The position numbers and the translations under genes were made by a program. The notes beneath the pieces are model-generated. The model worked only from the letters and a program-made list of their open reading frames with translations. It made no database searches and was not told where the DNA came from. Below, in pieces: positions 2,453 to 43,054 of a stretch of 60,000 bases of DNA (position 1 is its first letter; each line of letters begins with the position of its first letter). Source of the stretch: Bolinopsis microptera. Taxonomy: Eukaryota > Ctenophora > Tentaculata > Lobata > Bolinopsidae. The DNA lies in NCBI RefSeq assembly GCF_026151205.1, contig NC_087082.1, forward strand, positions 20,424,494 through 20,484,493, given 5' to 3'.

Positions 2453-2760
2453 CTTTATTTACTCATTAAATAACAAATAATCACAGTGTACAAATACCGT
2501 GGCCATCTCCCAAAAGTGACCTAGTATTTTACATCAATAGGAAACAGGATTGAAAGAAAAAGAAACAGGAGAAAAGAAAAAAAGATATAGGAAAAAGAAA
2601 AAAGAAAAAGAAAAGAGGGGAAAAAGGAGGGAAAAAAAATGTTACGTAAAAAAGAAAAAAGAAAAAAAAAAAGAAGAATTAAGCATTAAGCATTAAGAAA
2701 AAAGAATAAAGAATGAAGAATAAGCATGAAGAATAAGCATGTTTTGCAGCGTTGTTAGGT
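2453..2760. repeat. Dispersed repeat A (copy 1) with purine-rich tail
   Basis: It begins aactttatttactcattaa and contains a conserved core of about 110 bases, then a long (GAAAAA)n-type tract and a terminal gaagaataag motif. Near-identical copies occur at 16555 and 18355. It could be a SINE-like or LTR-derived unit. No inverted ends or coding capacity are seen. Confidence 0.75.
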
Positions 2761-3525
2761 CAAATATTTGAGGAGACAGTGGGCCTACTTTTGAACCTCG
2801 TTCCAGTGGACGTAAAATTTCATCCACTTTTCGTTCCCATTCCGAAATTTCTTGAGACTGTAAAATTATGTAACCTAAAATATTTGTTTCGCATTGAATT
2901 TCTTTTATGTTTTTCGCAAATTTATGGTATAATTTTTCGATTAAAGCTTCATATTCCCATTGAACGGTGCGTTTTTGAAAATCATAAACTTTATGAGTGA
3001 ATTCATTAAACTGCTGTCGCATCTGGTCAATTTTTTCGTTTAATTTGCGCGATTCCCACCAATTATAGCCAAAATTTAAAACACTGCCTATTATGGGTAC
3101 TGATAACATGGCCATAGCAGTTGCTTGGCGCTTGGCACGTGTGACATTTCCTAAATTGAAATTTTTTAGTTGAATTTTCTTGCTTTTCCAAAATGTCTCT
3201 ACTCTGTCTTCTAAAGAACTTGATAATTATATATCACTGAGCGTAGAAGAAGGTTGGGAATCTATTGTATGGCAAGGATCAGTTTGGTCCTTAATGCACT
3301 TCATGTCAAATTCGTAAGCTGTGTACTGTCGAGTTTCATGGTCAACTGTATAGTCTCTACGTAAAGCACAATCCTTATAGCCTGGTACATAGCTGTAGGA
3401 CCCACAGTTATCGTGCTTTTGGCAGTTTTTCATACAAGTTTCTGCATTAGTAACATTTTGGAAACGTTGCACTGTCTCACCTGAGCCGATTTCCGAACGT
3501 ATACAGTATTTTACCGCAAGTGAAC
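2693..3525 (-). pseudogene. Decayed retroelement envelope gene with PAN-like domain and furin-type site
   Basis: Two adjoining open stretches (3227 to about 3525, and 2693 to about 3160) resemble the N-terminal and middle parts of the 701-residue Env at 22535-24640. The first has the cysteine-rich PAN/Apple-like segment (CMKNC, DNCGSYSY, EFDMKC, compared with EFDMRC in the intact copy). The second has a basic RAKR site, a hydrophobic stretch (AMLSVPIIGSVLNFGY), a coiled-coil region and the motif GPLSPQIF (GPVSPTIF in the intact copy). The frame is broken between the two stretches and the C-terminal half with the membrane anchor is missing. Conservation of the domain order in a diverged copy argues that it is functional in the family. 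Confidence 0.8.
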
Positions 3526-18866: not shown

Positions 18867-19583
18867 GTTTTGGCTACTGCCGTTGTGGTTTATTTATATT
18901 TTATATTTTAGATTTTAGAGCTTTTAATCAGTCTCAATTTATGGTTACTTGAACACAATTGATAGAGTCGTATAATAAGCCTTCAAATATAATAATACTT
19001 CCATTAATTCATTAAATAGATACCTTCGGAGATAAGGTTCATATATTGAGAGTCTTTTTATATTTCCGATTTGAATTGAACTTGTAGCTTATTTGAGAGC
19101 TACGTCGAATTGTAACTTGTTGCTATCGCAACTAAAATTCAGATATAGTCGGGCAGTGTTGTTGCCGTTAGGACGCATCGAAACACGGCTTCTAGATCGC
19201 CGATGCGTGGCCTCGTTAATGCTCAATTGAAACTAATCAACACGGAACTATGTACCCTAGATCATTTGAAGGTCCGTATATTTTGAAAGTTTTTCCGGAC
19301 TAATGACCAACACCCTGGATCATTTGAGTAGACCCGTTATCGGTGTTTTATATTTTGAAAGTTTCACTGGACTAATGACCAAAGTCACTGTAGCTGTGCC
19401 TCTAAGAGTTTTACGGGTTAATTCAATTAACTGTTTCAATCCGTAAAATAAATTTGACTTGGAGGTATACTAAAACTTTGAGTTCTCAAGAGAAATGGAT
19501 TCGACAAATTCAGCCAAATGAACGGAACTTTAGCAAAGAACCACCTATAATTAAAGAGTCTTGTTGGTCCGAGAGGCCAACAC
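18867..19583 (-). repeat. 3' LTR of the provirus
   Basis: About 717 bp. On the minus strand it starts GTGTTGG or TGTTGG just after the polypurine tract and ends near ccaaaac. Only three base differences from the 5' LTR were seen (near 19103, 19136 and 19143), indicating a recent insertion. It contains an internal imperfect direct repeat (two copies of tattttgaaagttt followed by ggactaatgacca, near 19281 and 19352). Confidence 0.9.
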
Positions 19584-20735: not shown

Positions 20736-21416
20736 TCATTTACCGTATTGCTTATCTTCGTATTTCATCATTTTACTGATTTCTTTTATTTTCTCTTCTG
20801 TCATTGTAATAGACAACCAGGTTCCATAAGCTTTACAGTATTGGTACTTTAAATAATAATCGAATTTGCATTCCATCTTAATAATTGATTTTTCGATTCT
20901 TGACAATTTCGTCCATGACTCGTGTTTATACTTTCCCCAACGTTCTAGGATAACCCAGTCCGATTCATTTGGGAATAATGACTTGTATTTTTCAAATGTT
21001 AGACATCTAGTTCTGACAAAACGAGCATAACATTTCTTTTGTCCTAATACTGCTGCATTATACGCTCCTCTCATGGTTAGGAGTTTTATCGCGAATTTTC
21101 CAATATTCGTTTGTATCCTGGTCCAATACATCTCGTTCTCCATTAGAATGTCAAAGAGATAATATGTTTCATAATTATAGAAGCTGAAGAGATCTGGATA
21201 TCCACTTGTTGTGTCTCGCAAATATTGTGAGACGATTTTCCCCATCCTTTTGCAAATTAACCTGGCTTTGAGTAAATCACGTAGATTCAGCCTTGTCAAA
21301 ATAATATGCCATAGTTCAATAGGTAGATTACAGTTGGAAACTGATTTGACTTCTTTAATGGATAGACTTTGAATTTCTTCTGTTTTTGAAGGTATCTCTT
21401 CTGATGTATTTTCCAT
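20736..21416 (-). CDS. F-box protein 2 encoded by the provirus
   Basis: 226 residues. Residues 31-66 fit an F-box: LPIELWHIILTRLNLRDLLK then ARLICKRM. F-box proteins bind Skp1-Cul1 and deliver substrates for ubiquitination. The C-terminal 160 residues are paralogous to the protein at 21587-22504 (FYNYETYYL compared with FYSYETFYL, FVRTRCL compared with FLRTRCL, KMECKF in both) and would be the substrate-binding part. No WD40 or LRR repeats are visible. No signal peptide, so presumably cytoplasmic or nuclear. Lies last before the 3' LTR, so it must be expressed from a spliced or subgenomic mRNA. Intact frame without stops. Confidence 0.75.
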   Translation of the reverse strand: MENTSEEIPSKTEEIQSLSIKEVKSVSNCNLPIELWHIILTRLNLRDLLKARLICKRMGKIVSQYLRDTTSGYPDLFSFYNYETYYLFDILMENEMYWTRIQTNIGKFAIKLLTMRGAYNAAVLGQKKCYARFVRTRCLTFEKYKSLFPNESDWVILERWGKYKHESWTKLSRIEKSIIKMECKFDYYLKYQYCKAYGTWLSITMTEEKIKEISKMMKYEDKQYGK

Positions 21417-21586
21417 TTGCTTTGCTGATCAATATGTGGTTAGAAAACTTTAATTAAAGTGATAATGGAAATGACGAAAGAGCCTGTTTCTATAATTTTG
21501 AACCCGTTGGTGAGTTGTGATATTACGTTTGACATATTACGTTTGATTTACATTTTACATTTTACATTTTCCTTTTTACGGTTTGA

Positions 21587-22504
21587 TTACCCTATTAGAA
21601 CTTCAATCGGGGGTCTATATTTTATAGCTTGAAGAAGATTGAAGTTTTTATTCTCTTCGGTTTTCAGCATTTTGCCTATTCTTTGGATCTTTTCCCGATT
21701 CGTAGTTATCGGTAGAGACGTACCATATTTATTCATATATAGTTTCGTTAAGAAAGTTTGGAACTTGCATTCCATTTTAATGCATGATTTTTCCAATGGG
21801 GAAATATCCGCCCAAGAATTCTTCTTATATTCCTTCCATCTTATGATCACTTCGTCGTCAGACGCTTTAGGAGTGAAGCTTCTTAGCCGGTCCTTGAAAG
21901 TATACAATGGTAGACACCGTGTTCTTAAAAACCTCAAGTATGGTTTTTCCACTTTATTGATGGCGCTGCAGTACACCCCTTTCATGATCATGTATTTCAT
22001 GGCAAACTTTCCAATTTTAGTTTTCATATTCGTCCAACACATTTGATCTTCTATAAGTATTTCCGTTAAATAGAACGTTTCGTAACTATAAAATTTAAAA
22101 TTTTCCATTATTACATTGGTAGGGTTCCGCAAGTAATCCTTCACCAAACTACTGAATCGTTTATTTAATTCTCGTACTTTCAGTAATTGCTTGATGGTGA
22201 GGTAATTAAATATCATCACCCATATTTCTATTGGTATTTCTGTTTCTCGTTTCGTCTCTTCTTTGTGTAGTTGTTCCAAATTATCATCGTTAGAAGCGTC
22301 ATGCTCGATGTTCAATTCCTCCAGTTCCTCGTGTATATCCGAAGCACTATTTGAGTCTATTGTATTCTTTGATTCACTTTCCCAGTCGCTGACATCTTGA
22401 ACACTATCATTTACATTTTCGTAATGTAAATTTACAGCTTTCTTTACCTCTTTTTCTGGCACGTTTCCACAATTTATATTTTCGCAATTTAGGTTCCAGT
22501 TCAA
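21587..22504 (-). CDS. F-box protein 1 encoded by the provirus
   Basis: 305 residues. The N-terminal 85 residues are acidic and low-complexity (DWESES, ELEELNIEHD). Residues about 90-125 form the F-box (IPIEIWVMIFNYLTIKQLLK then VRELNKRF). The C-terminal 180 residues share motifs throughout with the second F-box protein downstream (ETFYL, IGKFAMK, RTRCLP, KMECKF, MNKYGTSLPIT compared with CKAYGTWLSIT), so the two arose by duplication and diverged. The ATG lies 31 bases after the end of Env-B, suggesting shared transcription. Duplication followed by open-frame retention suggests selection. Identity of the C-terminal domain is unknown. Confidence 0.78.
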   Translation of the reverse strand: MNWNLNCENINCGNVPEKEVKKAVNLHYENVNDSVQDVSDWESESKNTIDSNSASDIHEELEELNIEHDASNDDNLEQLHKEETKRETEIPIEIWVMIFNYLTIKQLLKVRELNKRFSSLVKDYLRNPTNVIMENFKFYSYETFYLTEILIEDQMCWTNMKTKIGKFAMKYMIMKGVYCSAINKVEKPYLRFLRTRCLPLYTFKDRLRSFTPKASDDEVIIRWKEYKKNSWADISPLEKSCIKMECKFQTFLTKLYMNKYGTSLPITTNREKIQRIGKMLKTEENKNFNLLQAIKYRPPIEVLIG

Positions 22505-22534
22505 GTTTAAATTTGATTCTTCTACTTCGTCTAG

Positions 22535-24640
22535 TCATAAGACTCTGTTTTTCACATCGTCCACTGAATACACCTTAGTTGTACTAGGCGCTCTTTGTCG
22601 CAGTCCTTCGCTATATTCACCACTGAAATTAGTTTCATCTACTCCAGATTCTTCATCTTTTCCGCTTTCTAAAAGTTCGTCTTTATTTTGTTCTTCTAAT
22701 TCTATGTCCTTTTCTACTTTCCTTGTCCTGAACCGTTTTTTCCAATAGCTGTATAGAAGGAAGATTCCCACTATAATGCTAATCATTACTGTTAAAATTC
22801 CTATAAAATTCACAAGAGTTAGATCCTTCGTCAGATTTAGTCCGATTCTTTCAGATTTGATATGTTTAACAATTTCTTTTTGTTGAACTACATGAGCACT
22901 GAGCTGACTTAGATTCGTTCTTTTCAGCAATTCATTTTCAGATATCAAATATTCGTCCCATTTTTCGGGGTTCGTCAACTCTAGTTCTTTCGTAAACATT
23001 GGCTCTTTAATTGATCTAATGATGTAGTTGTCGGCAACTATTTGATAATATTTATCGTAGTTGAGAAATTTCACCGTACTTCCATTTGAAATATCCACGT
23101 ATTCAGTAGGACTTTCTTGCGTCGATGCTTTCAAATGATGTATTGCTCTGACCATGACACCAGAACTAGTCTGAATATTGCGCATTTGACATTTTTCCAA
23201 ATTCGTTTTACATATTCTTGGGTCGGCGTTTAAACACCTTGCTTTCTTTGCAGATTCTTCGTTTTCTTTATTCCCCAGACATAATTTTATCCCACTTCGG
23301 ACCTCGCAATTATTTTCGTTTTCCAATTCGTAGAATTCGCCATCTTTTTGATACACGTGATTCGGTATATCCAGACGCATGCACTGAGTACCATTGACCA
23401 AACCTACTTGGTTCACTTGATATAGGATGTACATTTCATCACTTTTTATTTGAGGTATCGATATAATCACATGAAGATTGAAAAATTTTCCATCTTTCTT
23501 TACATCAGCTAGCCACATTCTGCCTAGACGATAGAATAAAGGGACGTTGTCAACATAAATTGCGTCCTCCATTCTTTTATGTTTCAGCAAATCCAGTATA
23601 TTCGTTTCATTAAATATTGTGGGACTCACGGGACCTTTTAATTGGCCGTCTATCAAATCTTTCGAGAGAGTGTATATATACTCTTTCCAGTCTTGAAGCT
23701 GATTTCTTTTCAGGTTATACCGAATTATACTCATCATTTCACAGCTTAATTCTTCCAATGACTCCTGGGAATTTAATTCCAAAGTTTTGTACATTTTCAA
23801 CATACCTTCATGAAATTCCGTTGCTGATTCAATATAGTCCGTCATTTCATTACGGAAATCCTGAAATTGGTCGTAGAACTCGTTAAGTTGAGTTGAAATT
23901 TTCGATTGTTCATAGAGACTGAACACTCCAGTAAGAATAGAACCGGCAAAAAATCCAAGGGCTGCTTGAACAAATCTTTTCTGTTTCCTGTTTTTCGTCA
24001 ATTCAGTAAGTTTTTCTATTTTTGTCATTGTTTCATTGACAAAATTTTCATTTGATTTTTCAAACAGAATATTGATTCTGGACTGATATTGTCCACAGAA
24101 TTTATTCTTATCTTCGACCATGCATCGCATGTCGAATTCGCTTGAACCTTTAGAATCCTGATGATACGTAGGGATGGTTTCTCTCAGAATGCAGATCACG
24201 ACGTCAGATCTATATTCCACACCGAAAGCTTTACATTTCGGTATTTTGATACATTCTCTGAAACATCGTTCCGCCATTTGTCTAGAATCATTTTCGAGGT
24301 CTTTATCCACCGAATTCTCGATTTCCTTTATTACATTTTGGCGATCTCCGATTTTGTTGTGCACATGATTACATTTTACGTGGGTTAGCAGTCCCCAAAT
24401 TACATTTTCGTCAATGTTGCATATGTTTTCGCATTCATTTACATTTTTCATTGGATTTCTTATCTTTATAAATGTTGATATCAGCACAGGGGTAATCTCC
24501 GGTGCGACGATTCCGATTCCTTGTAAGATGAGACCAGTCTTTTCCTGGTGGTAATTGATTTCTTCAATCATTCCTTTTGAAAGTGCTATGCAGCAACTGA
24601 TAAAGAAGATAACTTGTTGATAATATCCTTTCTTCCGCAT
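22535..24640 (-). CDS. env: Envelope glycoprotein B (fusion-protein-like, PAN domain, furin site)
   Basis: 701 residues. A hydrophobic signal peptide spans about 7-23. A Cys-rich region at about 70-182 resembles PAN/Apple domains (CFREC, KCKAFGVEY, EFDMRC). A polybasic furin-type site, RKQKR at 218-222, is followed by a hydrophobic glycine/alanine-rich stretch (ALGFFAGSILTG) placed like a fusion peptide, then a coiled-coil-like heptad region (about 240-300). One membrane segment (about 608-630, IGILTVMISIIVGIFLLY) precedes a 65-70-residue acidic tail. This layout parallels class-I-like F proteins of errantiviruses and baculoviruses, though the sequence itself is not obviously theirs. The frame is intact. 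Part of the same order is preserved in the relic at 2.7-3.5 kb. Confidence 0.8.
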   Translation of the reverse strand: MRKKGYYQQVIFFISCCIALSKGMIEEINYHQEKTGLILQGIGIVAPEITPVLISTFIKIRNPMKNVNECENICNIDENVIWGLLTHVKCNHVHNKIGDRQNVIKEIENSVDKDLENDSRQMAERCFRECIKIPKCKAFGVEYRSDVVICILRETIPTYHQDSKGSSEFDMRCMVEDKNKFCGQYQSRINILFEKSNENFVNETMTKIEKLTELTKNRKQKRFVQAALGFFAGSILTGVFSLYEQSKISTQLNEFYDQFQDFRNEMTDYIESATEFHEGMLKMYKTLELNSQESLEELSCEMMSIIRYNLKRNQLQDWKEYIYTLSKDLIDGQLKGPVSPTIFNETNILDLLKHKRMEDAIYVDNVPLFYRLGRMWLADVKKDGKFFNLHVIISIPQIKSDEMYILYQVNQVGLVNGTQCMRLDIPNHVYQKDGEFYELENENNCEVRSGIKLCLGNKENEESAKKARCLNADPRICKTNLEKCQMRNIQTSSGVMVRAIHHLKASTQESPTEYVDISNGSTVKFLNYDKYYQIVADNYIIRSIKEPMFTKELELTNPEKWDEYLISENELLKRTNLSQLSAHVVQQKEIVKHIKSERIGLNLTKDLTLVNFIGILTVMISIIVGIFLLYSYWKKRFRTRKVEKDIELEEQNKDELLESGKDEESGVDETNFSGEYSEGLRQRAPSTTKVYSVDDVKNRVL

Positions 24641-25590
24641 CCTTGCTATTTAAGTATTTAGATTAACCACCATTAACCGGTCATATTATAATATATTTTT
24701 ATAACTGTAACTTTAGTTACAAAGATACAAGATTCTAAATTACTACGTGCCTAATTTGGTTTTTGTGTTTTATTAGAAAAGTATACAAAACAGGTCATGC
24801 TAAAGTAATTATTTTGGTTCCAGACAACAATCACGTTCAATTTGCCTTGGATCTAAAGAGTCTTTTGGCACATTTAAGCTCAGATTTGGCACAAATCGTG
24901 CACGCAAATAAATAAATAAATTAAGAACTAAATAAATAAATAAATAAATAAAATTTTCCGGGTGACGTCATTTAATCTAGTTCCCATTCCATTTGGCCGG
25001 CCTGCATTTAAAATATGGTTTGTTTCATGGCGTTTCATATCTCACATTATTTTAATCTTATATTTTCATAGCGCTTGCTTATCACTTATTTAAATATCAT
25101 GCCATATTGTGCATTACTTGTTACTCATCTTGATCATATCTTTGCGCATACACTTCATTCATAATCTAGCTATCTTGTGCACTTTCATTTTATATGATTG
25201 CGCTTTATTATCTTTCATAACATAATCTTTGTCATACATAGTGCATTTACTTTAATATCATTGCATACAAATACTTTCATATTGCGCATATTTATTTCTT
25301 ATTACATATCATATTGTGCACTTGTTATTCATTATCATTGTTTCATTGTCAATCATAATATAGTTATACTGTCCTAGTACTCATACTTCATATATATATA
25401 TACTTTATTTATAGTAGTTCCTTCAAATAATGTTCATCATACATAGTAGCCTTGTTACTACTTATCCTTATTTACTAACATAATTAAAATTCCAGCTAAT
25501 TAATTCTTTATGTTGATGGAATATCTAAGGAGAATATCTAAATATACACATTTACTACAGTACATATAAAGGACAGTGTCAATCTAGGAA
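24641..25590. other. AT-rich spacer between the two env genes
   Basis: About 950 bp without a credible frame. Contains an (AAAT)n run near 24908-24950 and, at 25060-25400, several irregular copies of a catattgtgca / attgcgcata motif. May hold splice signals for downstream genes, or be inserted or decayed sequence. Confidence 0.5.
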
Positions 25591-27231
25591 TTAAACTTCC
25601 GTATCATCCTGACCATCCCGGTCAATTGGGCCCTCATTAACTGGGATCCGTCCTCTGGTGCGATCGACGCATTTACTTATAATTAATTCTACTATAATGT
25701 ACCTCCAGATTAGATACCATACGGCGATGCTTTGTACGTTGCTAATAATAGCAAATATAATCGTAAACTTACTTTGTCCGAATATTCCAAATAATTCCCG
25801 CCAATTGGATTTTACATTTCGTTTTTCCGTTTTATCAATCGTCAAATGGTTAATTTCATTTTCCATTTCCTTCAGGATTAAATCGCTAATATCATGGTGC
25901 TTCAATTCAGACGTATTATATATCCAATTTTGAAAATCTTGAGACATGGGTATTCCAGTAAGTTTCACTCTGTCTATACTTTCTACCTTTGAAAGGTTTA
26001 CCCTCATTTCGTGTAACCCATGAGCACTTTGAGCGAGAATCGTATTATTCACCATCATATATTGGGTCGTAGAGTTGTGGCAATCTATCTCTATTGCGGT
26101 AGGCATTATCATGTTATACTTAGGATCTACATAGCCCTCAATATATTCATCATTTTCCGGCAGATTATATTCTATTTTAAACCCGTTATAACACCTGTTG
26201 GTGTCGTTTATGAATCGATAATGTTGAATTTGCAGACAAGGATAAATCATTAACAATTTTCCGACCAATTTAGCCTTTACATCCGTCCTATTTAACTTCC
26301 ATTGTACGTAATCAGTTGGATCGATTTTCGCTAGGATTCTCTCAGTCCCATATATGTCGTTGTACACGTTACACAAATACTCCGTTTGCGCCAACGGACT
26401 TTTAATTAATTCCAAAAGATAATTAAATTTATTGACGAGTTCCTCTCTTATTGCTTCGATCGCATTTTCATTATTCGAATTTACATTTTCAAGATTAAAT
26501 TGATACGGGGCTGGGCTTCCCTTTATTTGGAAATCCCTATCGATCCAAGTGTTACCCGGATTTTTCTCCGGCAGATTAAATGACATGCTCAACTCGGGTA
26601 CGAGTAGCTTATTTTCGATTTGTGTTGCATTGAACTGCCCCACAGGCAAATAAGCCCTTTTTACATTTTCAATCACGTTCCAAGTGACGTGTTTTCCGTT
26701 ATGCGTTAGACAGTACCCTGAACTATAGTCGCAACCCTCCATATTTGACAAAGAGGACGTAAATGTATCCTCATGATTCGCTATTACTACTCCATCCGAG
26801 AAATAACAAGATGTCGTAGTCTTAGATCTGTGTTCCAGCCACTTGAAGTCACATTTAAAATTATTAACCAATTTCGTCTGATACTCGCCTTTTTCGTTAA
26901 TACATTTTCGATTTTCAATCAAATATTTAGCCCTTTCTGGGTTTACGGTGATTACTCTTTTACTTTGACCCGTGATTGTTTCTTCTCCCACAAAATTCAT
27001 ATATGATTCACAGGTTCGAGACATTATTACCAGAGCATTGGCTGATGATTCGTATTCCGCGATGTTACGTTTCGAGATGGAAATATTCCATTTGACGTAA
27101 TTTTTATTTTTACATTTTAAATTTTCTGATAGCTTGTATAGCTTTCCCCAATATTCTTCAGAGCAGAGTAGTAATGTGGTTTGTGCTATCGATATGGAGA
27201 CCAGTATTATCACTGTCCTTGCAAACGACAT
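25591..27231 (-). CDS. Envelope-like glycoprotein A, unknown type
   Basis: 546 residues with the topology of a type I membrane glycoprotein. There is an N-terminal signal peptide (VIILVSISIAQTTLLLC), a large Cys-containing ectodomain with many N-X-S/T sites (for example NRT, NDT, NST, NNT, NLS), a hydrophobic segment near 488-518 (FTIIFAIISNVQSIAVWYL) and a short charged tail. No polybasic cleavage site or fusion-peptide-like stretch is evident. It could be the attachment partner of Env-B or a second fusogen. It has no recognisable similarity to Env-B. Starts about 330 bases downstream of the pol remnant. Family not recognised. Confidence 0.7.
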   Translation of the reverse strand: MSFARTVIILVSISIAQTTLLLCSEEYWGKLYKLSENLKCKNKNYVKWNISISKRNIAEYESSANALVIMSRTCESYMNFVGEETITGQSKRVITVNPERAKYLIENRKCINEKGEYQTKLVNNFKCDFKWLEHRSKTTTSCYFSDGVVIANHEDTFTSSLSNMEGCDYSSGYCLTHNGKHVTWNVIENVKRAYLPVGQFNATQIENKLLVPELSMSFNLPEKNPGNTWIDRDFQIKGSPAPYQFNLENVNSNNENAIEAIREELVNKFNYLLELIKSPLAQTEYLCNVYNDIYGTERILAKIDPTDYVQWKLNRTDVKAKLVGKLLMIYPCLQIQHYRFINDTNRCYNGFKIEYNLPENDEYIEGYVDPKYNMIMPTAIEIDCHNSTTQYMMVNNTILAQSAHGLHEMRVNLSKVESIDRVKLTGIPMSQDFQNWIYNTSELKHHDISDLILKEMENEINHLTIDKTEKRNVKSNWRELFGIFGQSKFTIIFAIISNVQSIAVWYLIWRYIIVELIISKCVDRTRGRIPVNEGPIDRDGQDDTEV

Positions 27232-27326: not shown

Positions 27327-27640
27327 TTAATTACTAAGTATATCACATTCAAGAAATTCGTCCTCGCTGGACAGATAAGTCCGGTTGCTAGAGGGGTTTC
27401 CCTCTGAAGAGTCTTTCTTTTTCTTCTTTTTGGGCTCTTTCCTTTTTTCATTTTTCCTTCTATGAGCCGTGGTACGTACCGGGTCCTCTGACCAGACTTC
27501 TGGTTCTGCTTCATTGTCCTCTTCTCTCGATTCTGGCAACTGTGTTTCTTCCATTTCTATGTCTAGATTTTCAGGGGGCGGGGGAGGAGGTGGTGAACTT
27601 GAAGGAGTGCTGACCCGGCTCCAGTCCACATCGCTACCTG
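27327..27640 (-). CDS. Proline- and lysine-rich frame, probable tail of the deleted pol
   Basis: About 100 codons open on the minus strand, beginning in the pol remnant and without a clear ATG. Composition: PPPPPPP run, acidic middle (EEDNEAEPEV), then a KKKKKK run. It lies where the end of integrase would be expected, so it may be the C-terminal extension of pol, now out of frame with the protease after the internal deletion. It could also be a small accessory protein. Confidence 0.45.
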
Positions 27641-28678
27641 TGGGTGTGATGACTTTATTTCGTGTTTATAGATTGTACATAATGACATTTCTTTTCTTGA
27701 TAATGAAAATATGTCGTGGAATTCGAGAAGTAACTCCTTCACCTTCATTTTTTCGTCATCTGTTAGATTTTCATTTTCGTATAACTTGACCTGTTTTACT
27801 AATATTTCTAATCTTTCGGCAGGACTCATGTTCCAAGTTTCTAGCTCCTGCTGAATAGCATTTACCTGTACTTCTTCAATAGTTCCTACTATTGTATCTT
27901 TTTGTATATGAAGCTCATACTCTTTGTTCCCGTTTACATCTATTTCAAACACTTCTTCAGTAATATTGACCACTATTGGGCTTACATTTTCTCCCCAGAT
28001 TTCGCAATTGGGTGTATATATGTATGTACCAGGCAATTTAAAATCGTTGTTGTCTATTTTACATACTAGTACTCCGTCGTTATCAATGCTTTTATTCATT
28101 AAATTTACGACATTTGAACTCCGATGAGTTTCCGTAGTTCTGAACATTGGTGTCACAAAGTCATCACCCTTCAATAACAGCGATTTATAATTGATGACCA
28201 CTCTTTTGTCCTCTAAAAACTGGTTTCCGAGGATCAATGATTCGTTGATATCACATACTGTGACATTTACGTCACATATTCTGGTCTCGATCTTCATTTG
28301 TAGAGTTATGCAACCATAAACTTTTATGGGCGACCCAGTTGCTGTTTTAAACTTTTGATCAGTACATTCTAGGTGCACGTCTTTGAATATTGACTGAAAC
28401 ATGTCATGTGACATGCAGTTCTTTATCGCCCCGGTATCAATCATTGCTAATATCAGTTTATCCCCGAGTTTAACTTTAATGTATATATTCGAACTGCCAT
28501 CGTTGATTTTATTTACATTTTCGCCACTTTCGCCAATCTCTTTATTGCTATTTTCTTGGATTTCACAATTTTCTTGATTTTCGTAATTTTCTTGATTTTC
28601 ATATTGTGCTTCCAACATCGGGTCTTCTTCCTCAGTACCCTCATTTATTGTATCGACGTTGAAAGCGCAAATTAGTTT
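27563..28678 (-). pseudogene. pol: Protease and start of pol, truncated by internal deletion
   Basis: The frame opens across the gag stop in the -1 frame. Residues 58-66 from the first Met (AMIDTGAIK) carry the DTGA active site of a retropepsin. Further on the frame shows the usual Gypsy RT approach region (LLEFHDIFSL and YKHEIKS), after which a true RT would begin. Instead it passes within about 12 codons into unrelated sequence (27,640 region). The RT palm, RNase H and integrase, normally more than 2.5 kb, are absent. Protease could still act on Gag, but the element would need polymerase and integrase from another copy. Confidence 0.85.
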
Positions 28679-30180
28679 AAATTCGATCGCTTTTTCATGA
28701 ATTCTTCTCTTTCCTGTTTATCAAGTTCTTGATTATTTAGTTCCATAAATCTTCTCCATCGATCCTTTCCATCGATATGTTGTTGCTGATATTCCTGCTC
28801 TACTGCTCGCGGTCTATATTCCTGAGATTGATTCCCATTGTAATTATTTTCGAATTTCTTTTGTATTTCTCGATAATTGCCTCTGCTTTGCGATGGTTTA
28901 GCACTATTCCTTGCCATTTGATTCAGTCTAGTGTAACAGTCTTCTATTTTATGACCTTTTCTTCCACAAAACATACAAATCGGTGTTTGTCTGAAAAAGC
29001 ACTCCTCCGTATTGTGATTATTATATTGACAAATATTACAGAATTTGTTTCTTCGATTCGAGTTTCGCATTTGATTATTTCTTTGAAAATCGTTTCGTCG
29101 ATCATAGTTTGGTGCTTGGTCGTTCCACTGATTATTGAAATTCTGTCTCTGATTTTGTTGGCGATTGAAGTTTGATCTCTGATTGTACTGACGATCGAAA
29201 TTTGGTCTTTGATAGTTTTGTCTATTAAAATTCGGCATCTGTCCATTCTGAATGGCGAACAGTTCTGTTTCTTCATCTTCGAATTTCACTTCTTTCTTTT
29301 CCACTTTAGGTTTGACACTTCGAAGTGCGTGTATAGCTTCTAAATCTAGCGCTTGACCATATGCCGTCGCGTAGTCGTTGGTCCCGTTTTTTATAATTTC
29401 AAAACAGATTTGTTCAGACGCTAATCCGTTGATGAAACAGTCGTATAAAATCTGCGATTTAATTGTTGATTTTTCTGTGCCGTAACAACGCTCCGCCATG
29501 TCGTTAAGACGAGTTACAAAATCCGTGATTGATTCAGTCGGTTCTTGCTTTGCTGAGAATAATTTTGTTCTCCATTCTGCTTTCGAATTTGATCCCTCTA
29601 TTGTTCGTACCAATTTTTCACAACAACTTTCAAAATCCAGCCTCTGCATTCTGTCGAAATTCAATGTGTCGACTTTTGATTGACATGTTTGATCCAAATA
29701 GGTAATTAATACATCCAATCTCTTGTTTTCTGGGATTTTCGATGCAGTCGCAAAATGTTGAAAATTCTTTAGCCATCGTTTAAAGTTTCCCCCGTGACGA
29801 AAGATGTCGGGTTTTCTTAGCGGTATATCTGATTTTCTATTTCCGTCCCATTTCTCCAGAAGCTCCAATTTTCCAGTTTTCTGTCCGTCAAGATAGGCTT
29901 TATCCATTTCCTGTTCTTTAAGCTGAGTTCGTTTGTCCAATTCATGTTGCATTCTTCTATATTCATTATCTAGCTTCTGATTAGTCTCGAGCATATTATT
30001 ATTTCGGTCCGATAAATCGTCTGCATATTTCTTCAAATCTTCGTTCTTCTTTGCAGTGTCTTTGACTGTATTTTTAAGTTTGTCGGCATATGTCTTCAGA
30101 TCCTCATTTTTATCATTTATTTCATGTAGCTGCTTCTTCAAATTGTCTATTTCCTTCTTTGCATTGTCCAGTTCAGCCAT
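28672..30180 (-). CDS. gag: Gag polyprotein
   Basis: 502 residues. Residues 1-110 are strongly coiled-coil (KKEIDNLKKQLHEINDK and following). About 120-290 is a retrotransposon capsid-like region (FKRWLKNFQHF, CEKLVRTIEG, ITDFVTRLNDMAERC). About 310-375 is Asn/Gln/Arg-rich with irregular NFNRQ repeats. Two CX2CX4HX4C zinc knuckles follow at 381-394 (CNICQYNNHNTEEC) and 402-415 (CMFCGRKGHKIEDC). Gag builds the capsid and packages RNA. The ATG lies about 95 bases after the primer-binding-site candidate and is the first long-frame start in the leader. Intact. Confidence 0.9.
   Translation of the reverse strand: MAELDNAKKEIDNLKKQLHEINDKNEDLKTYADKLKNTVKDTAKKNEDLKKYADDLSDRNNNMLETNQKLDNEYRRMQHELDKRTQLKEQEMDKAYLDGQKTGKLELLEKWDGNRKSDIPLRKPDIFRHGGNFKRWLKNFQHFATASKIPENKRLDVLITYLDQTCQSKVDTLNFDRMQRLDFESCCEKLVRTIEGSNSKAEWRTKLFSAKQEPTESITDFVTRLNDMAERCYGTEKSTIKSQILYDCFINGLASEQICFEIIKNGTNDYATAYGQALDLEAIHALRSVKPKVEKKEVKFEDEETELFAIQNGQMPNFNRQNYQRPNFDRQYNQRSNFNRQQNQRQNFNNQWNDQAPNYDRRNDFQRNNQMRNSNRRNKFCNICQYNNHNTEECFFRQTPICMFCGRKGHKIEDCYTRLNQMARNSAKPSQSRGNYREIQKKFENNYNGNQSQEYRPRAVEQEYQQQHIDGKDRWRRFMELNNQELDKQEREEFMKKRSNLN
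28675..28681 (-). promoter_or_regulatory. Probable -1 ribosomal frameshift site TTTAAAC at the gag end
   Basis: In gag phase the codons before the stop read AAT TTA AAC TAA, giving a slippery heptamer T TTA AAC. A -1 shift enters the open protease frame, which has no stop across the junction. This heptamer is one of the classic X-XXY-YYZ slip sites. No downstream pseudoknot was worked out. Confidence 0.7.
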
Positions 30181-30255: not shown

Positions 30256-30275
30256 TTCGAACCAGGAGGGCACCA
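30256..30275 (-). promoter_or_regulatory. Primer-binding-site candidate
   Basis: Directly inside the 5' LTR the minus strand reads TGGTGCCCTCCTGGTTCGAA. It starts with TGG (complement of tRNA CCA end) and includes a TTCGAA like a T-loop. Spacing inside the T-arm does not fit a standard tRNA exactly, so the tRNA identity is open. Confidence 0.5.
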
Positions 30276-30593
30276 GTTTTGGCTACTGCCGTTGTGGTTT
30301 ATTTATATTTTATATTTTAGATTTTAGAGCTTTTAATCAGTCTCAATTTATGGTTACTTGAACACAATTGATAGAGTCGTATAATAAGCCTTCAAATATA
30401 ATAATACTTCCATTAATTCATTAAATAGATACCTTCGGAGATAAGGTTCATATATTGAGAGTCTTTTTATATTTCCGATTTGAATTGAACTTGTAGCTTA
30501 TCATAATCATTTTACTACTTTCATTACGCATCAATATTTTTCCTCTGTAATCTACCTTTTCTTATCGCACTGAGCTTGTGATTTATACTGATC

Positions 30594-32363
30594 ATGCGAC
30601 GAAATTCTACACCTAATACCTCTACACCTACATCATCCCAGAGGAAGAAACTAGCTTCTAAAGCTGCTTCTGAGTCAATCGCTGACTCAGAAGCACCTTC
30701 TACCGGTATGTTGGGGCTTGGGGTGTCAGGGAATTACACGTTTGCAGCAACAACATGCCTTCACTTGTTAAGCTTACTGCCTGCTCCCGATTTAGATTTT
30801 GAGTTCGAAAGACTCCGCCTCCTTTCGAAAAGTGCTACTAAAGCAAGCACAACGGACAACAAAATTTCTTTTTTAAGGAAACATTTATTAGGCCAATGTG
30901 CCCTAGACGCTGACGAGACAATGAACAAATTAACTGCGAGTCTAAAACTCATTTCATGTACCGTTAATGAAGAGGTTGAGAAGGCGGTCAACAGCATCAC
31001 GGAACGAGCCTGCACTGCGATCCAGGAAGTCTCTGAAGAGTCCAGGAAGCAGACCTCTCTCATCGTTGAAGCAGCTAGCAGTAGTTCTCCACAGACTCTC
31101 TCCCCTTCCGGTGAAGTAGAAAGCATACCTAACCCACCACCTCCGGTAAGATTTTTGGACTGTGACTTTGGTGATCTTTCTTTTGATGAAATCTACCGCG
31201 AGCTTGACTTTAACATGAAACACCCGGGGGGCCGTTCAACGTCATATTTTGGCTCGGTACCTTACAGTTATGGCAGAACCAACCACCGTGCAACCCATGA
31301 TAAGCCCTTGCCACCTGTCCTAAAGCGCATTTTTGATTGTTTGCATGAATCCGATCCTGACTTTACTCCCACGAACTATACCTGCCTCTGTACTTACTAT
31401 AAGGACGGGTCAGTTGGTATTCCATTGCATAGTGACAGCGAATCCAGCATTGTTGAAGATAGTCTGATTTACACTGCATCATTTGGCTCTACCAGAATTA
31501 TGAGAATGTCAACGTCGACAGGCCCTTTCGTTGAGCATAACATCCCGCTTGAGCACGGCTCTGTCTTTGCAATGTCTCGATCTGATCAGAACCACTGGCA
31601 GCACGGCATTGAACGTGATCCTATGTTAAGGCAGCCACGAATCTCGCTCACTCTTCGCAAGTTGAAACAGCCTGATCCCACGGCCTTACCAGCACCTGCA
31701 GCCCCTACTCGGGTCCCGCCTGTTGCACCACCTACACAGATACAGTCACCAGCGTCCCGTCACTCCAGAGTCCTCTTAATTCACGACTCAATACACCGAG
31801 AAACGCCAGAATGGCTGTTCGACCAGATACCTGGCCACCGATGTCAAAAGCGCCTTAACTATCAACTAGTGAACTCACTGGAACATCAACATGAGTTCAA
31901 ACATTCTAAAGCAGTCGTACTTTCCTGCGGCATTAATGACCTAGCTAGGTATGGGCAGTCGGCCAGGAGTCTTGCGGACAATTTCTGTCCCCGTTTTATA
32001 GACTCTTGTAACAATAACAAGAATACCGAGTTTATGTTTTGTGCTTTATCTATGACTAAATTTAACTGGTTGAATGCAGAGATTGACGCTTTTAATATCA
32101 TAATGTTGAACCTGGCTAAGGATATTCCAAATCTGAGTTTTTTCGATGCCCATGCCGTGATCAAGCGTGCTAACTCATACTACGTATGGGACCGCAACGA
32201 CAGACATGGCATCCACTTATATCACGAGGTGCAAAGGGTAGTGGCACATGAACTTGTTAACTGCGTTGGCAAGTTATGTGGATCTGAACAGAGACGTCAC
32301 AGGAACTGTGAGTGGCTCTATCACCACAAGCCTAACAGTCTCTCCAGATATAACCGAAGCTGA
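30594..32363 (+). CDS. LINE ORF1: AlkB-like 2OG-Fe(II) oxygenase fused to SGNH-type domain
   Basis: 589 residues. About 1-185: Ser/Thr-rich then helical. About 215-357: AlkB-like dioxygenase region with YTCLCTYYKDGSVGIPLHSD (metal ligands H279 and D281), GSVFAMSRSDQNHWQHGIE (H337) and PRISLTLR (R349, R355), i.e. the HxD...H...R-x5-R set for Fe(II) and 2-oxoglutarate. About 358-390: Pro/Ala linker. About 392-560: SGNH-like fold with HDS (S399), CGIND (N448) and DRHGIHL near the end. AlkB enzymes remove alkyl groups from nucleic acids, and SGNH domains occur in CR1-type ORF1. The fusion would pair RNA or DNA repair with the esterase-like module. Complete frame; catalytic residues by motif only. 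Confidence 0.8.
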   Translation: MRRNSTPNTSTPTSSQRKKLASKAASESIADSEAPSTGMLGLGVSGNYTFAATTCLHLLSLLPAPDLDFEFERLRLLSKSATKASTTDNKISFLRKHLLGQCALDADETMNKLTASLKLISCTVNEEVEKAVNSITERACTAIQEVSEESRKQTSLIVEAASSSSPQTLSPSGEVESIPNPPPPVRFLDCDFGDLSFDEIYRELDFNMKHPGGRSTSYFGSVPYSYGRTNHRATHDKPLPPVLKRIFDCLHESDPDFTPTNYTCLCTYYKDGSVGIPLHSDSESSIVEDSLIYTASFGSTRIMRMSTSTGPFVEHNIPLEHGSVFAMSRSDQNHWQHGIERDPMLRQPRISLTLRKLKQPDPTALPAPAAPTRVPPVAPPTQIQSPASRHSRVLLIHDSIHRETPEWLFDQIPGHRCQKRLNYQLVNSLEHQHEFKHSKAVVLSCGINDLARYGQSARSLADNFCPRFIDSCNNNKNTEFMFCALSMTKFNWLNAEIDAFNIIMLNLAKDIPNLSFFDAHAVIKRANSYYVWDRNDRHGIHLYHEVQRVVAHELVNCVGKLCGSEQRRHRNCEWLYHHKPNSLSRYNRS

Positions 32364-33009
32364 GCGCTTTACAAATCATTGATACCATTCTGATTAAAAA
32401 ATGCGATTCACTTTTTTCTCAACTTCCAGTCCACCTTTAACAGATCGTTACCAAGATAGATCATATTATAATGAAATGATCTGATTGGTGGAATTTATTT
32501 TTCTCATTATCTGATAAGCTCATTCATTATCAGTATCTCTTATCACCCGATCGCACTCAAAACATCTTACTCTACAAATCTGTATCATCCTAAATCAATG
32601 AGATTTCATAACTCTATACAACATTCAAAATTCACATACAAATCTATAAATAATCAAGTGCGTTCTCTTCAGTATTACTCAAGTTCAGTGCGATAGTCCC
32701 TTATTACGTAAACGCTACAAACAAATCAAATACAAATAACACCTCACAAAACTACACAACACAAAAGCAACCACTTTATTCGATTTCTATTTTTTAGCCA
32801 AATCAGTTATTTAAATCATACTGATAAGGCCCTAGATAAGGACACTTTATTTCACTTAATTATCCGATTTTAGCTTAAAATAATATAATTTACTTTTAAA
32901 TCATATCACGATTCTGTAGCATACAGGACCTCCGGTTCTCGTGAAAGAATCTGATTTGAACTATAGTTTTATATACTATCAGTATCATAATCATAATATT
33001 TAGTTATAA
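32364..33009 (+). other. LINE inter-ORF spacer
   Basis: 646 bp between ORF1 and ORF2, AT-rich, no frame. ORF2 must be reached by internal initiation or another mechanism, in contrast with the ATGA overlap of the LINE at 6-12 kb. Confidence 0.7.
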
Positions 33010-36000
33010 ATGGAACCCACTGTTACATCTGAAAATAAAGTCAAGATCAAATGTTCAAGCTGCAGCGGCTGGTGTTACTCTATTAGAAATATTCGCACAT
33101 GCTCATGGTGTCAAAGTAATGTCCATGTCAAATGTTTTAAGGATAATTTAGGCTGTACGAGTTGCTGTGAAAGTATCATTCCTGGATTTCACGCAACCTA
33201 CTATGAAATCTATGACGACTACAGTAAACTTAATAGTGACATATTTAATCCGTACGATCAGAATAGTCGATTTAATCTTATTGGCGACGCCATGACCAAC
33301 GAAGAGCATCAAGATTCAACTTGGAGCAATATTTCATCTTTCCTAACTAGTTGTCAGTATAAACAACAACGTAACGTGAAAAAATCTACCTGCTCTCAAC
33401 TTAAAACATTTTCTATGAACATAAGATCCCTTATTAAGAATATAGATCAATTACGTGATGATATTGAGACTTATGATAAGTATGATATATTGTGTTTTAA
33501 CGAAACTAATTGCACTTTAGGGAAATTACCGAACGGAATAAACGACGTTACCTTAGATGGATTTCATGAACCATTTATCCAGGATCCAATTCGCCCATCT
33601 GGAAAAGGTGGGGGGCTAGCCACTTATGTACACAAACGTGTAGTCGATTATGATAAAATTGATATTTTCACTCCAAACCCTGAACCAACTAATACTAGTG
33701 GCGAATTTCAATTTATCAAGCTCCATCAGTGCAAAGGATACAACAGAACGAAAATAATTGGCAATGTTTACCGTTCTCCCGCTAGGAGACCTGAAGCGTT
33801 TCTAGAAATTTTCAAAAATACGCTGCACAACCTAGGGAGACACACCCGTAAACATATGACGCTTCATGGAGATTTCAACCTTGATTTACTGAAGCACAGC
33901 AGCGACCAAGCATGTCAGAACATTATAGATATTGCGTCCTCTTACGGTTTTATTCAAATTGTATCACGCCCAACTCGCCTAACGGACCATAGTGCCACGC
34001 TCATTGACCACATCTACACAAACAATCTTGAGGATACAATAAGCTGTAACGTCTTAACGACAGATATGTCTGATCACTTAGCAATAGTCACTACAATAAA
34101 TCTTGATAACACGCCAACCAGCAGCTACCGCTCTGCGTCTAACTCACAAAATGTATCTCAAACTGAAACACGTAGATTTAACGACACCAACAATCAAAAA
34201 TTCAGAGACTTAATTACAGATGAAAGTTGGTCAGAAATTTTTAACAATACCAATGATGCCAACGAACAGTTCAATAATTTAAATACGGCTTATAATAAGA
34301 TTTACGAGTCCGCCTATCCCACAAAAAGACAATCACGAAGACAAAATGAACGTGTTAATCCGAAACCATGGATGCTGCCCTGGCTCGAAGAAGCTATAGA
34401 ACGTAAAAATGAGTCATATTATGATTTTGTTAAGGAACCATCTGATAGTAACCGCAGTAAATATGACCGTCTGAAGAAGTTTTGTAATAAACACATCGAT
34501 AAAGCTAAAAACAAGCACTTCAAAAAATTTTTTGAGCAAAACAAAGAAAATTCTAAGAAGCAGTGGCAAATGATAAACAGTCTTCTTAATAGGAAAAAAT
34601 CTAAACCTACTTCAATTAAACTGACTGACGAAGACGGCTCAATCAGCACTCCGGCAGCTGTAGCAGAAAAATTTAACGATTACTTCTCAAACATCGCTCC
34701 TAAAATTAAGTCTGAAATTAGTAGTAGGACCACTTTTGATCCTGGTGGAACCCATAGCACACTTCGCAACGCCACTCCAAGTAGTATTTACTTAAAGCCA
34801 GTCACTGCCACAGAAATTCAGGACGTCATAAACCTGCTTAAGAATAAAGCCACACTAGACACTAAAATTGAACCTCTAAAAATCGCTAACAGCTGTCCCA
34901 GTTTTACTAGTGTACTAGCCCACGTTGTCAACAGTTCTTTTGAACAGGGGATCTTTCCACAGGCTTTGAAAGAAGCGAAGGTGGTCCCAATTCACAAAGG
35001 TGGATCTAAATCTGACATAAAAAATTACAGACCAATATCTCTTCTTGCTTCTTTCTCTAAAGTATTTGAAAAGCTAATGCATAACCGAGTTATAAGTTTT
35101 TTAGATAAATACAGCATACTATGTGAAAACCAATACGGTTTTCGCCCGGGTAGGTCTTGTGAACATGCTCTTCTCAACGCAAAAGACACCATTCTTAATT
35201 CAATGTCTAAAAAGCAGGTAACTTTACTTCTTTTAATCGATTTCAGCAAAGCTTTCGACCTTGTGGATCATTCCATACTCTTGCGCAAGCTGGACCATTA
35301 CGGCATAAGGGGTCAAGCCTTAAACTGGTTTAAGTCATATCTCACTAACAGGAAACAGTTTGTATCAATTGGCTCGTCAAAATCTTCAACCAACCAAATT
35401 TTATACGGCGTGCCTCAAGGGTCAATATTAGGACCTTTACTTTTTATAATCTACATAAACGACCTGCCTCAAATATCAGATATAGCCAATTTCATTATGT
35501 ACGCAGATGATGCCAACATCTTCCTGATAGGAGAAAATCTTAATGAAGTTTACGATAAACTAATAACTCTTAGCGATGCTTTAGTTAAATGGGTAGATAA
35601 TAATGGTTTAGCTCTCAACCTTAAGAAAACAAATTATATGATCTTCTCTCGACAAAGAAATCTTAATTATCGTGATGTGGCAATTTCTGGTGTCACAATT
35701 GAGAGAAAAACAGAAGCCCGTTTTTTAGGAGTTATAATAGATGATAAACTAAACTGGTCCCATCATATTTCTGCCATGAAAATGAAAATGTCCAGATACA
35801 TAGGAGTCATGTACAAACTTAAAAAATATCTGCCTCTCGAAGCACGTCTTCAAATTTATCAAAGTTTTGTGCAGTCACACCTTAATTATTGCAGCCTTGT
35901 ATGGGGTTTTGCTGCCAAGTCTCATATTGAATCGCTTTTTGTAAAACAGAAAATGGGCCTTCGAGCAGTATTACCTGGTTTCGTCAATTACTGGTACAAG

Positions 36001-36483
36001 GACGGTATCCCCCCAGCAAGTACCAAGTCTGGCTTTTATTCACATAAAATATTGACAGTACACAGTATCATTGTAAAGAACGCACTCATTTTAATGCATA
36101 AATTGAAAAACTTTCCTCATCTAGTACCATTGTCTCTCAAGAAAACAATTCCCAAAAGCGCACCATTATTTAATACTAACCTGGATTCTATTCTCACTAC
36201 ACAATGGTCAGAAAAGTATGGTCAACACCCTTACAACAACTCAGTATTTTTTAAAGGTCCATTATTAGCAATAAACCGATATAATGTTGCAGCAACTTCC
36301 CCGCCTAGTCTATTTAACCTGAACATTTACAAAACTTGTATAAAAACTATGCTCATCGATCAGCAAAATGAAAACATCGAAGACGATTGGCCTAATTTCA
36401 TGTTATATTGTATAACAGGACTAAGAAAATCAAAGCGTAACATAAACCAAAATGCCGATAATAACCTTGTCTCTACATCTTAG
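33010..36483 (+). CDS. LINE ORF2: Cys-rich finger, APE endonuclease, reverse transcriptase
   Basis: 1157 residues, intact. N-terminal finger (CSSC, CSWC, HVKC, CTSCC). APE endonuclease at about 135-365: FSMNIRSL, NETNC, VYRSPA, GDFNLD, DHIYTN and SDHLAIV. Reverse transcriptase at about 655-880: NYRPISLLA, QYGFRPGRSCEHAL, IDFSKAFDLVDH, GVPQGSILGPLLFIIYIND and catalytic YADDANIF. The tail shares the C-terminal region with the truncated relative at 45.5 kb. YADD and the sequence details set it apart from the FADD-type LINE at 7-15 kb. It should be catalytically competent. Confidence 0.92.
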   Translation: MEPTVTSENKVKIKCSSCSGWCYSIRNIRTCSWCQSNVHVKCFKDNLGCTSCCESIIPGFHATYYEIYDDYSKLNSDIFNPYDQNSRFNLIGDAMTNEEHQDSTWSNISSFLTSCQYKQQRNVKKSTCSQLKTFSMNIRSLIKNIDQLRDDIETYDKYDILCFNETNCTLGKLPNGINDVTLDGFHEPFIQDPIRPSGKGGGLATYVHKRVVDYDKIDIFTPNPEPTNTSGEFQFIKLHQCKGYNRTKIIGNVYRSPARRPEAFLEIFKNTLHNLGRHTRKHMTLHGDFNLDLLKHSSDQACQNIIDIASSYGFIQIVSRPTRLTDHSATLIDHIYTNNLEDTISCNVLTTDMSDHLAIVTTINLDNTPTSSYRSASNSQNVSQTETRRFNDTNNQKFRDLITDESWSEIFNNTNDANEQFNNLNTAYNKIYESAYPTKRQSRRQNERVNPKPWMLPWLEEAIERKNESYYDFVKEPSDSNRSKYDRLKKFCNKHIDKAKNKHFKKFFEQNKENSKKQWQMINSLLNRKKSKPTSIKLTDEDGSISTPAAVAEKFNDYFSNIAPKIKSEISSRTTFDPGGTHSTLRNATPSSIYLKPVTATEIQDVINLLKNKATLDTKIEPLKIANSCPSFTSVLAHVVNSSFEQGIFPQALKEAKVVPIHKGGSKSDIKNYRPISLLASFSKVFEKLMHNRVISFLDKYSILCENQYGFRPGRSCEHALLNAKDTILNSMSKKQVTLLLLIDFSKAFDLVDHSILLRKLDHYGIRGQALNWFKSYLTNRKQFVSIGSSKSSTNQILYGVPQGSILGPLLFIIYINDLPQISDIANFIMYADDANIFLIGENLNEVYDKLITLSDALVKWVDNNGLALNLKKTNYMIFSRQRNLNYRDVAISGVTIERKTEARFLGVIIDDKLNWSHHISAMKMKMSRYIGVMYKLKKYLPLEARLQIYQSFVQSHLNYCSLVWGFAAKSHIESLFVKQKMGLRAVLPGFVNYWYKDGIPPASTKSGFYSHKILTVHSIIVKNALILMHKLKNFPHLVPLSLKKTIPKSAPLFNTNLDSILTTQWSEKYGQHPYNNSVFFKGPLLAINRYNVAATSPPSLFNLNIYKTCIKTMLIDQQNENIEDDWPNFMLYCITGLRKSKRNINQNADNNLVSTS

Positions 36484-36855
36484 ATTATATGCACACACTT
36501 ATGCATCACTCAATAAACGTCGCATATCTCATCAATTACACTGCCAACATAGGACATTCTTTTTTATCGCCGCGATTTCAAATCAAGTTACAAATTCTAC
36601 AAATTTGAAGTGCTCAGTCTTGTTTTACTTTTCTTATCTTTACCTATTAACCATTGGAAAATAAAACTTTAAGCTATAAACCTTCATTGCATACTTTACC
36701 GGTAGAGTCTAAATTGAATAGTTTGAGATTTCCTTTACATTTTATATTTATGCATGTGCCCCACGGGGATGAATTTCTTATTACCATTGATATTATATAT
36801 ACTTTTTTGAGTAAACATTGGCTGGTACCACGGGCCAGTCCCCAACAAAAAAAAA
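36484..36855 (+). other. LINE 3' UTR and A-rich terminus
   Basis: Non-coding and AT-rich. Ends cccaac followed by about ten A at the duplicated agcttat. Confidence 0.75.
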
Positions 36856-37433
36856 AGCTTATTTGAGAGCTACATCGAATTGTAACTTGTTGCTATCGCA
36901 ACTAAGATTCAGCTATAGTCGGGCAGTGTTGTTGCCGTTAGGACGCATCGAAACACGGCTTCTAGATCGCCGATGCGTGGCCTCGTTAATGCTCAATTGA
37001 AACTAATCAACACGGAACTATGTACCCTAGATCATTTGAAGGTCCGTATATTTTGAAAGTTTTTCCGGACTAATGACCAACACCCTGGATCATTTGAGTA
37101 GACCCGTTATCGGTGTTTTATATTTTGAAAGTTTCACTGGACTAATGACCAAAGTCACTGTAGCTGTGCCTCTAAGAGTTTTACGGGTTAATTCAATTAA
37201 CTGTTTCAATCCGTAAAATAAATTTGACTTGGAGGTATACTAAAACTTTGAGTTCTCAAGAGAAATGGATTCGACAAATTCAGCCAAATGAACGGAACTT
37301 TAGCAAAGAACCACCTATAATTAAAGAGTCTTGTTGGTCCGAGAGGCCAACACTGATCTGGATTGTGTCACATAGTGCATCAATAGTGCGGGTGAACTCC
37401 ATTCCCACACTTTCAAATGATACTACAACACGT

Positions 37434-42883: not shown

Positions 42884-43054
42884 GAATTAGGGAAGGATGG
42901 AGGGGAGGATAAAGTTCACAAGCCTGATATAGCCCATCACGACCGGCCTGATATAATTACAAATTCCAAGAAATTCCAGGATTGGCAGAGACCTACACCA
43001 CACCACCAAATTCTCGGAAACATGGCTGATGTGATGCTGTTGAAGTCGTTCCAG
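42884..43054 (+). CDS. Internal exon of an unidentified host gene
   Basis: A 171-base segment (57 codons, phase 0 at both ends) bounded by acceptor ttttcatgacag and donor ccag/gtatca. It is open throughout (ELGKDGGEDKVHKP through ILGNMADVMLLKSFQ). The other two phases contain stops or are less protein-like. No flanking exons could be fixed. The downstream intron would hold the large 42-bp minisatellite. Family not recognised. Confidence 0.4.

Follow-up and report, generated by a model that had tools for sequence, protein, structure and literature searches.

Two paralogous F-box genes in an envelope-bearing LTR retroelement of the ctenophore Bolinopsis microptera

Retroviral accessory genes that hijack cullin-RING ubiquitin ligases are known best from primate lentiviruses, and the lentiviral proteins Vpu, Vif and Vpx all turn such ligases on host factors, Vpu doing so from the membrane. 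These proteins recruit a host adaptor or substrate receptor, whereas the retroelement considered here itself codes for the F-box, possibly on its envelope protein (Env). The element is a long terminal repeat (LTR) provirus of putative Gypsy type, lying on the minus strand of a 60,000-nucleotide stretch of the genome of the ctenophore Bolinopsis microptera (C11:20424494-20484493, hereafter the window, to whose first letter all positions refer unless a contig or another locus is named). Between its env gene and its 3' LTR it carries two F-box genes, which we call FB1 (20736-21416, minus strand; 226 residues from an ATG of its own) and FB2 (21587-22534, minus strand; 315 codons counted from the env stop).

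F-box proteins coded by viruses are already on record in baculovirus LEF-7, which binds Skp1, and polerovirus P0 (PMC6105029; here and below, papers given by accession are drawn on through extracts of their text). FB1 and FB2 are like them in being short and in joining an F-box to a private C-terminal part, but LEF-7 belongs to a DNA virus and P0 to a plant RNA virus, and no kinship between their C-terminal parts and those of FB1 and FB2 came to light, no search aimed at it having been made. In general plan the element is closer to the insect endogenous retroviruses, or errantiviruses (gypsy, ZAM; Metaviridae), with which it shares LTRs, gag, a protease, the placement of env behind pol and a furin-type site in Env; in the Drosophila group, an Env of the baculovirus F type is made from a spliced mRNA (PMC12992720). 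Unlike errantiviruses, the element has both a gB-like and an F-like open reading frame (ORF) in addition to its F-box genes. The term F-box is absent from the main text of two papers on insect endogenous retroviruses, PMC12992720 among them, and in the open-access literature searched we found no description of an envelope-bearing retroelement with F-box genes; by title, the papers retrieved dealt with plant and fungal genomes or otherwise not with such elements.

The evidence set out below supports a retroelement with two paralogous F-box genes that are kept as a selected accessory function. As a whole, our reading is that FB1 and FB2 may be element-coded adaptors of the Skp1-cullin-F-box (SCF) ubiquitin ligase, FB2 being carried on Env by stop-codon readthrough, and from the sequence we give this a probability of about 0.52.

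F-box identity, relatives and selection

A first-pass annotation made from the DNA letters alone had described two intact ORFs of 226 and 305 residues with F-box patterns and a shared C-terminal domain, placed between env and the 3' LTR of a young provirus. Both ORFs are where it put them, on the minus strand, and they do lie downstream of env (22535-24640) and ahead of the 3' LTR (about 18867-19583). What it missed is that FB2 lacks an ATG that could serve as its own start, its 305 residues (21587-22504) being reached by counting from a TTG, and that FB2 stands in frame behind the UGA CUAG stop of env. The F-box patterns themselves hold in a hidden Markov model search, in which both proteins pass the curated cut-off of PF00646 (20.5 bits), FB1 over residues 29-63 with 30.8 bits (E 2.5e-7) and FB2 over residues 89-123 with 25.2 bits (E 1.5e-5); with PF12937 they reach 24.0 and 21.8 bits, both just under the cut-off of 24.3. 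The shared C-terminal domain is likewise upheld, as FB1 and FB2 are 42% identical over 222 residues that include it. When FB1, FB2, the protein of a second family (B, described below) and the public proteins P0002-P0005 are compared, the residues invariant in all seven are, in FB1 numbering, P32, E34, W36, I39, L48 and R52 within the F-box, and T103, G106, K107, Y130, T136, R137, T140, F141, W168, K180, E182 and K209 past it. A profile of the C-terminal part built from FB1, FB2 and P0002 placed all four B-type C-terminal parts ahead of every one of 2000 shuffles (E 3e-7 to 1e-3, the best shuffle having 0.049), and on this profile evidence the C-terminal domain is common to the FB lineage independently of the F-box. 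In LEF-7 and P0, Skp1 binding is reported to depend on a Leu-Pro pair (PMC6105029). FB1 has the pair, as do the proteins of families B and F, and FB2 has Ile-Pro.

Several other matches were set aside as chance, namely the best hits of the PDB profile search (arginyl-tRNA synthetase and COP9 subunit 3), a match of FB2 to Syd (19.3 bits against a cut-off of 25), and a 21-residue match of FB1 among viral contigs, where the single locus (L064) has tailed-phage-like ORFs. Neither alignment A1 nor the family-B protein found a relative in the viral contigs, and FB2 alone has no relative in the protein database.

The annotation had expected the genes to recur in other copies of the element, a test set in advance, and they do so. 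In a search of 264.65 Mb of genome, whose locus counts are lower bounds, FB1 was found at 10 near-identical loci (family A), without a stop at nine and broken at one. FB2 is present at the same 10 loci, with the frame past the env stop open over 315 codons in eight; Env of family A is there too, with no stop in any copy, and FB1 and FB2 adjoin env at all ten. With matches accepted up to E 1e-3, the genome yielded no relative of FB1 or FB2 outside such element loci. F-box genes occur in two further families. Family B has two loci, at C3:6.12 Mb (L053) and C5:19.2 Mb (L055), and at both a single F-box-like gene comes after an F-like env; its frame is open in the former and shifted in the latter, and its protein is 24-29% identical to FB1 and FB2. 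Among the public proteins, P0001 resembles FB1 (97% identity) and P0003-P0005 are of the family-B type (53-59% identity to the family-B protein); the F-boxes of P0002-P0005 score 18.5-19.2 bits with PF00646, under the cut-off. P0002 is about 49-52% identical to FB1 and 37% to FB2, and its greater closeness to FB1 suggests that the duplication that gave FB1 and FB2 is older than the split from P0002.

In the other of these families (F), an LTR pair at C3:10548606-10562757, with 100% identity over 427 nt, encloses an F-box gene whose 205-residue protein scores 30.3 bits with PF12937 (cut-off 24.3) and 26.1 bits with PF00646. The gene lies inside the LTRs at 4/4 LTR-paired loci (C3, C9, C2 and C4), being broken at the last three, and downstream of a detectable env at five loci; searched with the whole protein, the genome gives 37 matches, many of them fragments of broken copies that overlap. 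In its C-terminal part the protein bears no recognisable likeness to FB1 (FB profile 8.7 bits, E 0.022), and the sequence would fit either a separate uptake of the family-F gene or a very old split. Beside these genes we note a 211-residue ORF of unrecognised kind between env and the family-F F-box gene (L054, 2747-3382, minus strand), with shorter kin in L063 and L067, and an open F-box-like frame of 238 residues on C7, at 17.857 and 18.115 Mb (L069, 494-1210, plus strand), which has 18.1 bits with PF00646, below the cut-off, and 26% identity to the family-F protein.

The claim of a selected accessory function stands for the comparison between lineages and not for that among the ten young copies. 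FB1 and FB2 differ at codon positions 1, 2 and 3 by 0.415, 0.299 and 0.661; the corresponding values against the family-B gene are 0.59, 0.50 and 0.654 for FB1 and 0.602, 0.485 and 0.648 for FB2, with synonymous sites saturated or nearly so in all these comparisons. In family F, the C3 gene and an open frame on contig C150 differ by 0.196 nonsynonymous (dN) and 0.735 synonymous (dS) changes per site, a ratio of 0.27 over 205 codons; the C150 copy shares with C3 the stretch behind the F-box gene (77% identity), and the LTR pair described above is that of the C3 copy. Together, the codon-position bias between lineages and the family-F ratio point to selection on the protein. Among the ten family-A copies, the unique changes in FB1 and FB2 together number 22 nonsynonymous and 7 synonymous, with four in the spacer and one, synonymous, in the end of env.

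FB2 behind the env stop codon

FB2 is in the frame of env and opens with the codon directly after the env stop. Its F-box match begins at codon 99, and the first in-frame ATG past the stop is codon 107, inside that match. When 20,000 stretches of the same dinucleotide make-up were simulated, a fraction of 0.0001 was open over 107 codons. The stop itself is TGA followed by CTAG (22537-22531, minus strand) in 10/10 copies, a candidate readthrough signal; counted over both strands, CTAG follows TGA in 3 of 2591 cases in the window. UGA CUA with a G next is a context in which readthrough has been measured, both in fungi and in human cells (PMC4207609, PMC4359377). Judged from this arrangement, Env is probably extended by readthrough into FB2. 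The closest described parallel is in the ilarviruses, many of which extend their coat protein through a UGA CUA stop (the readthrough product CP-RT; PMC11166343), and FB2 is like CP-RT in that an extra domain without an AUG of its own is added to a structural protein. Unlike FB2 and Env, CP-RT combines the coat protein of a plant RNA virus with a silencing suppressor, with no envelope involved, and the F-box is not mentioned in the extracts of PMC11166343.

The protein that would bear this tail is an F-like Env of 701 residues (22535-24640, minus strand). It is 36% identical to the family-B Env, which matches PF00523 (Fusion_gly) with 38.8 bits (cut-off 29.8); the F-like type also matches the F protein of respiratory syncytial virus in the PDB (E 0.0024). 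The window Env has no Pfam envelope match, PF00523 included, and so is not classed here as an Env of the baculovirus F type. A furin-type site, RQKR, is present in its translation. Its strongest hydrophobic window spans residues 612-630 and leaves a tail of about 70 residues, from which the FB2 extension should be cytosolic; SCF ligases work in the cytosol. We note separately that the F-like Envs of families C and D (L056, L057 and L058) have long, hydrophilic tails at the C-terminus in which no F-box can be recognised.

The provirus and its surroundings

Read 5' to 3', the provirus holds gag, a protease ORF, the gB-like ORF, the F-like env, FB2 and FB1. The gag gene (28672-30180, minus strand) matches PF14893 with 25.5 bits (cut-off 25) and PF03732 with 22.4 (cut-off 24.1), and the ORF with a retroviral-type aspartyl protease (27563-28618, minus strand) matches PF13975 with 28.4 bits (cut-off 28.2). 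The remainder of pol is absent, as the gap of about 330 nt between the protease ORF and the gB-like ORF has no room for reverse transcriptase, RNase H and integrase, and these three in Gypsy order are missing from the window copy; we use the label Gypsy-type provisionally, from gag, the protease and the layout only. Paired LTRs are present, all on the minus strand. The 3' LTR spans 18867-19583, with ends placed to within a few bases, and the 5' LTR comes in two parts, an inner one at 30273-30501 and an outer one at about 36856-37353, which are 99.6% and 99.2% identical to the 3' LTR over 230 and 503 nt. They are separated by an insertion of 6354 nt (30502-36855) with ORFs of a long interspersed nuclear element (LINE) and a seven-base duplication on either side. 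The annotation was thus right as to age, but the provirus, while young, is defective, with pol missing and its 5' LTR split. No clear target-site duplication of the provirus was seen by eye.

The gB-like ORF (25591-27231, minus strand; 546 residues) scores 23.4 bits with PF00606, under the cut-off of 43, and has no sequence match in the PDB. It was found at 10 loci, and at two of them it is a single piece, stop-free over the whole query. The element encodes two envelope-type ORFs of different fusion classes (22535-27231, minus strand), and loci with both a gB-like and an F-like ORF occur in several families (L053 and L054 among them). The remnant of another F-like env, with a stop, lies at 2693-3448 of the window (minus strand); it is 28% identical to the window Env and family-E-like.

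In the LINE that splits the 5' LTR (30594-36483, plus strand), the first ORF codes for an AlkB-like 2-oxoglutarate-Fe(II) oxygenase domain (70.6 bits with PF13532); it also matches GDSL weakly, at 20 bits and so under the cut-off, and is followed by an endonuclease-reverse transcriptase ORF. Elsewhere, 42958-44600 is a long array of 42-bp tandem repeats with frames open on both strands, and at 58001-60000 the G+C share rises to 0.569, against about 0.36 in the rest of the window. Rfam gave no match in the window, the G+C-rich end included. Outside the window, contig C125 holds TTAGG arrays (33 overlapping matches), a repeat that by itself would suggest an arthropod host.

Proposed action, rival explanations and significance

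If our reading of FB1 and FB2 as element-coded SCF adaptors is correct, the two would serve an envelope-bearing Gypsy-type retroelement as accessory genes. The F-box of each would bind host Skp1 while the common C-terminal domain would bind a target, and as such a host SCF ubiquitin ligase would be turned on a protein of the element's choosing. FB1 would probably be a free cytosolic protein made from a spliced mRNA; a possible but weak acceptor, picked out by eye, lies 5' of its ATG (21417-21456, minus strand, exon start 21424), with a pyrimidine share of 0.53 where 0.7 would be good. FB2 would probably be made only when ribosomes read through the UGA CUAG, in which case a minority of the Env molecules, those so extended, would expose an F-box to the cytosol from the membrane. 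Most likely, the two would be used to remove host factors that stand in the way of the element, and FB2 may serve at membranes against a receptor or surface restriction factor. Proteins of the PIWI-interacting RNA (piRNA) pathway and membrane factors are candidate targets only; in insects, piRNAs defend against envelope-carrying gypsy elements (PMC13172572). The roles proposed in the first-pass annotation, in counter-defence or glycoprotein turnover, are guesses.

A number of observations weigh against this reading. The PDB profile search gives the F-boxes of Skp2 no better than E 0.68 and 0.85, with six unrelated chains ahead of them, and the family-B F-box taken alone is below the Pfam cut-off (PF00646, 15.6 bits). 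No RNA structure was found after the env stop (z -0.61; 52/200 shuffles fold equally well). Since the ten family-A copies are all recent, their common stop context amounts to one inherited state; no further FB2-type relative with DNA was found, and conservation of the stop and extension is thus not seen in diverged relatives. Family B has an env that ends in UAG U and a separate F-box gene. The ten copies show no selection on FB1 and FB2, although they are too young for selection between them to be informative. Last, when the stretch behind env was searched in six frames with the FB profile at four loci of family C, one of family D and one of the two of family E, no F-box gene was found, and none of 70 genome-wide PF00646 matches (E up to 1e-3) lies near their loci by coordinate; as the same PF00646 search also missed family B, this absence is valid at its sensitivity only. 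An F-box would therefore not be a general need of such elements. A further env locus (L060) was set aside as uninformative, its ORFs of at least 100 residues being from another element.

It is conceivable, if somewhat improbable, that FB2 is instead made from a spliced mRNA of its own, with a start codon from an upstream exon, in which case it would still be an SCF adaptor but would not be tied to Env. The insect endogenous retroviruses of Drosophila do splice env to upstream exons, in one subclade to an AU dinucleotide (PMC12992720), and a good-looking acceptor, again judged by eye, precedes the family-B F-box gene. In family A, a transcript spliced 5' of the UGA in that frame would still run into the stop, and of the acceptor sites from the UGA to the F-box a simple scan found none to be rich in pyrimidines (best share 0.47), although the scan is crude and the FB1 candidate fails it as well. 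Splicing would, moreover, leave unexplained why the frame is open straight from the env stop. A different alternative, which we consider unlikely, accepts Skp1 binding and places its purpose in the stability or localisation of the F-box protein itself, without destruction of a target; against it, the conserved C-terminal domain would suggest a bound partner. More unlikely again is that Env and FB2 were formerly one ORF, the UGA having come down to all ten copies from one nonsense mutation and the CUAG behind it being due to chance. The common frame with no gap and no ATG would agree with such a history, as would the recent descent of the ten copies from one common ancestor, but CTAG is rare behind TGA in the window and family B keeps env and the F-box gene separate. 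That the F-box genes came from the host by passive capture and do nothing for the element seems to us very improbable, for although retroelements do pick up host genes, frames are broken in 2/10 copies of FB2, 1/10 of FB1 and most of family F, and the changes in FB1 and FB2 among copies look unselected, such capture does not account for the codon-position bias and the dN/dS of 0.27 between lineages, the identical position that the genes of families A and B take behind env, or the restriction of FB1 and FB2 relatives to such loci.

Returning to FB1 and FB2 as SCF adaptors, we advance a broader proposition tentatively and at somewhat short of even odds, namely that envelope-bearing LTR retroelements of one invertebrate took up F-box genes at least two times as accessory genes in the style of retroviruses, and that in one family programmed readthrough of UGA CUAG grafts an F-box onto the cytosolic tail of a fusion glycoprotein, making Env a membrane-tethered ubiquitin-ligase adaptor. 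If this is true, an F-box placed on the Env tail through stop-codon readthrough would be an unusual route by which a ubiquitin ligase reaches a chosen membrane, and invertebrate retroelements too would carry dedicated host-control genes. The binding partners of FB1 and FB2 would then point to the host factors that restrain such elements.
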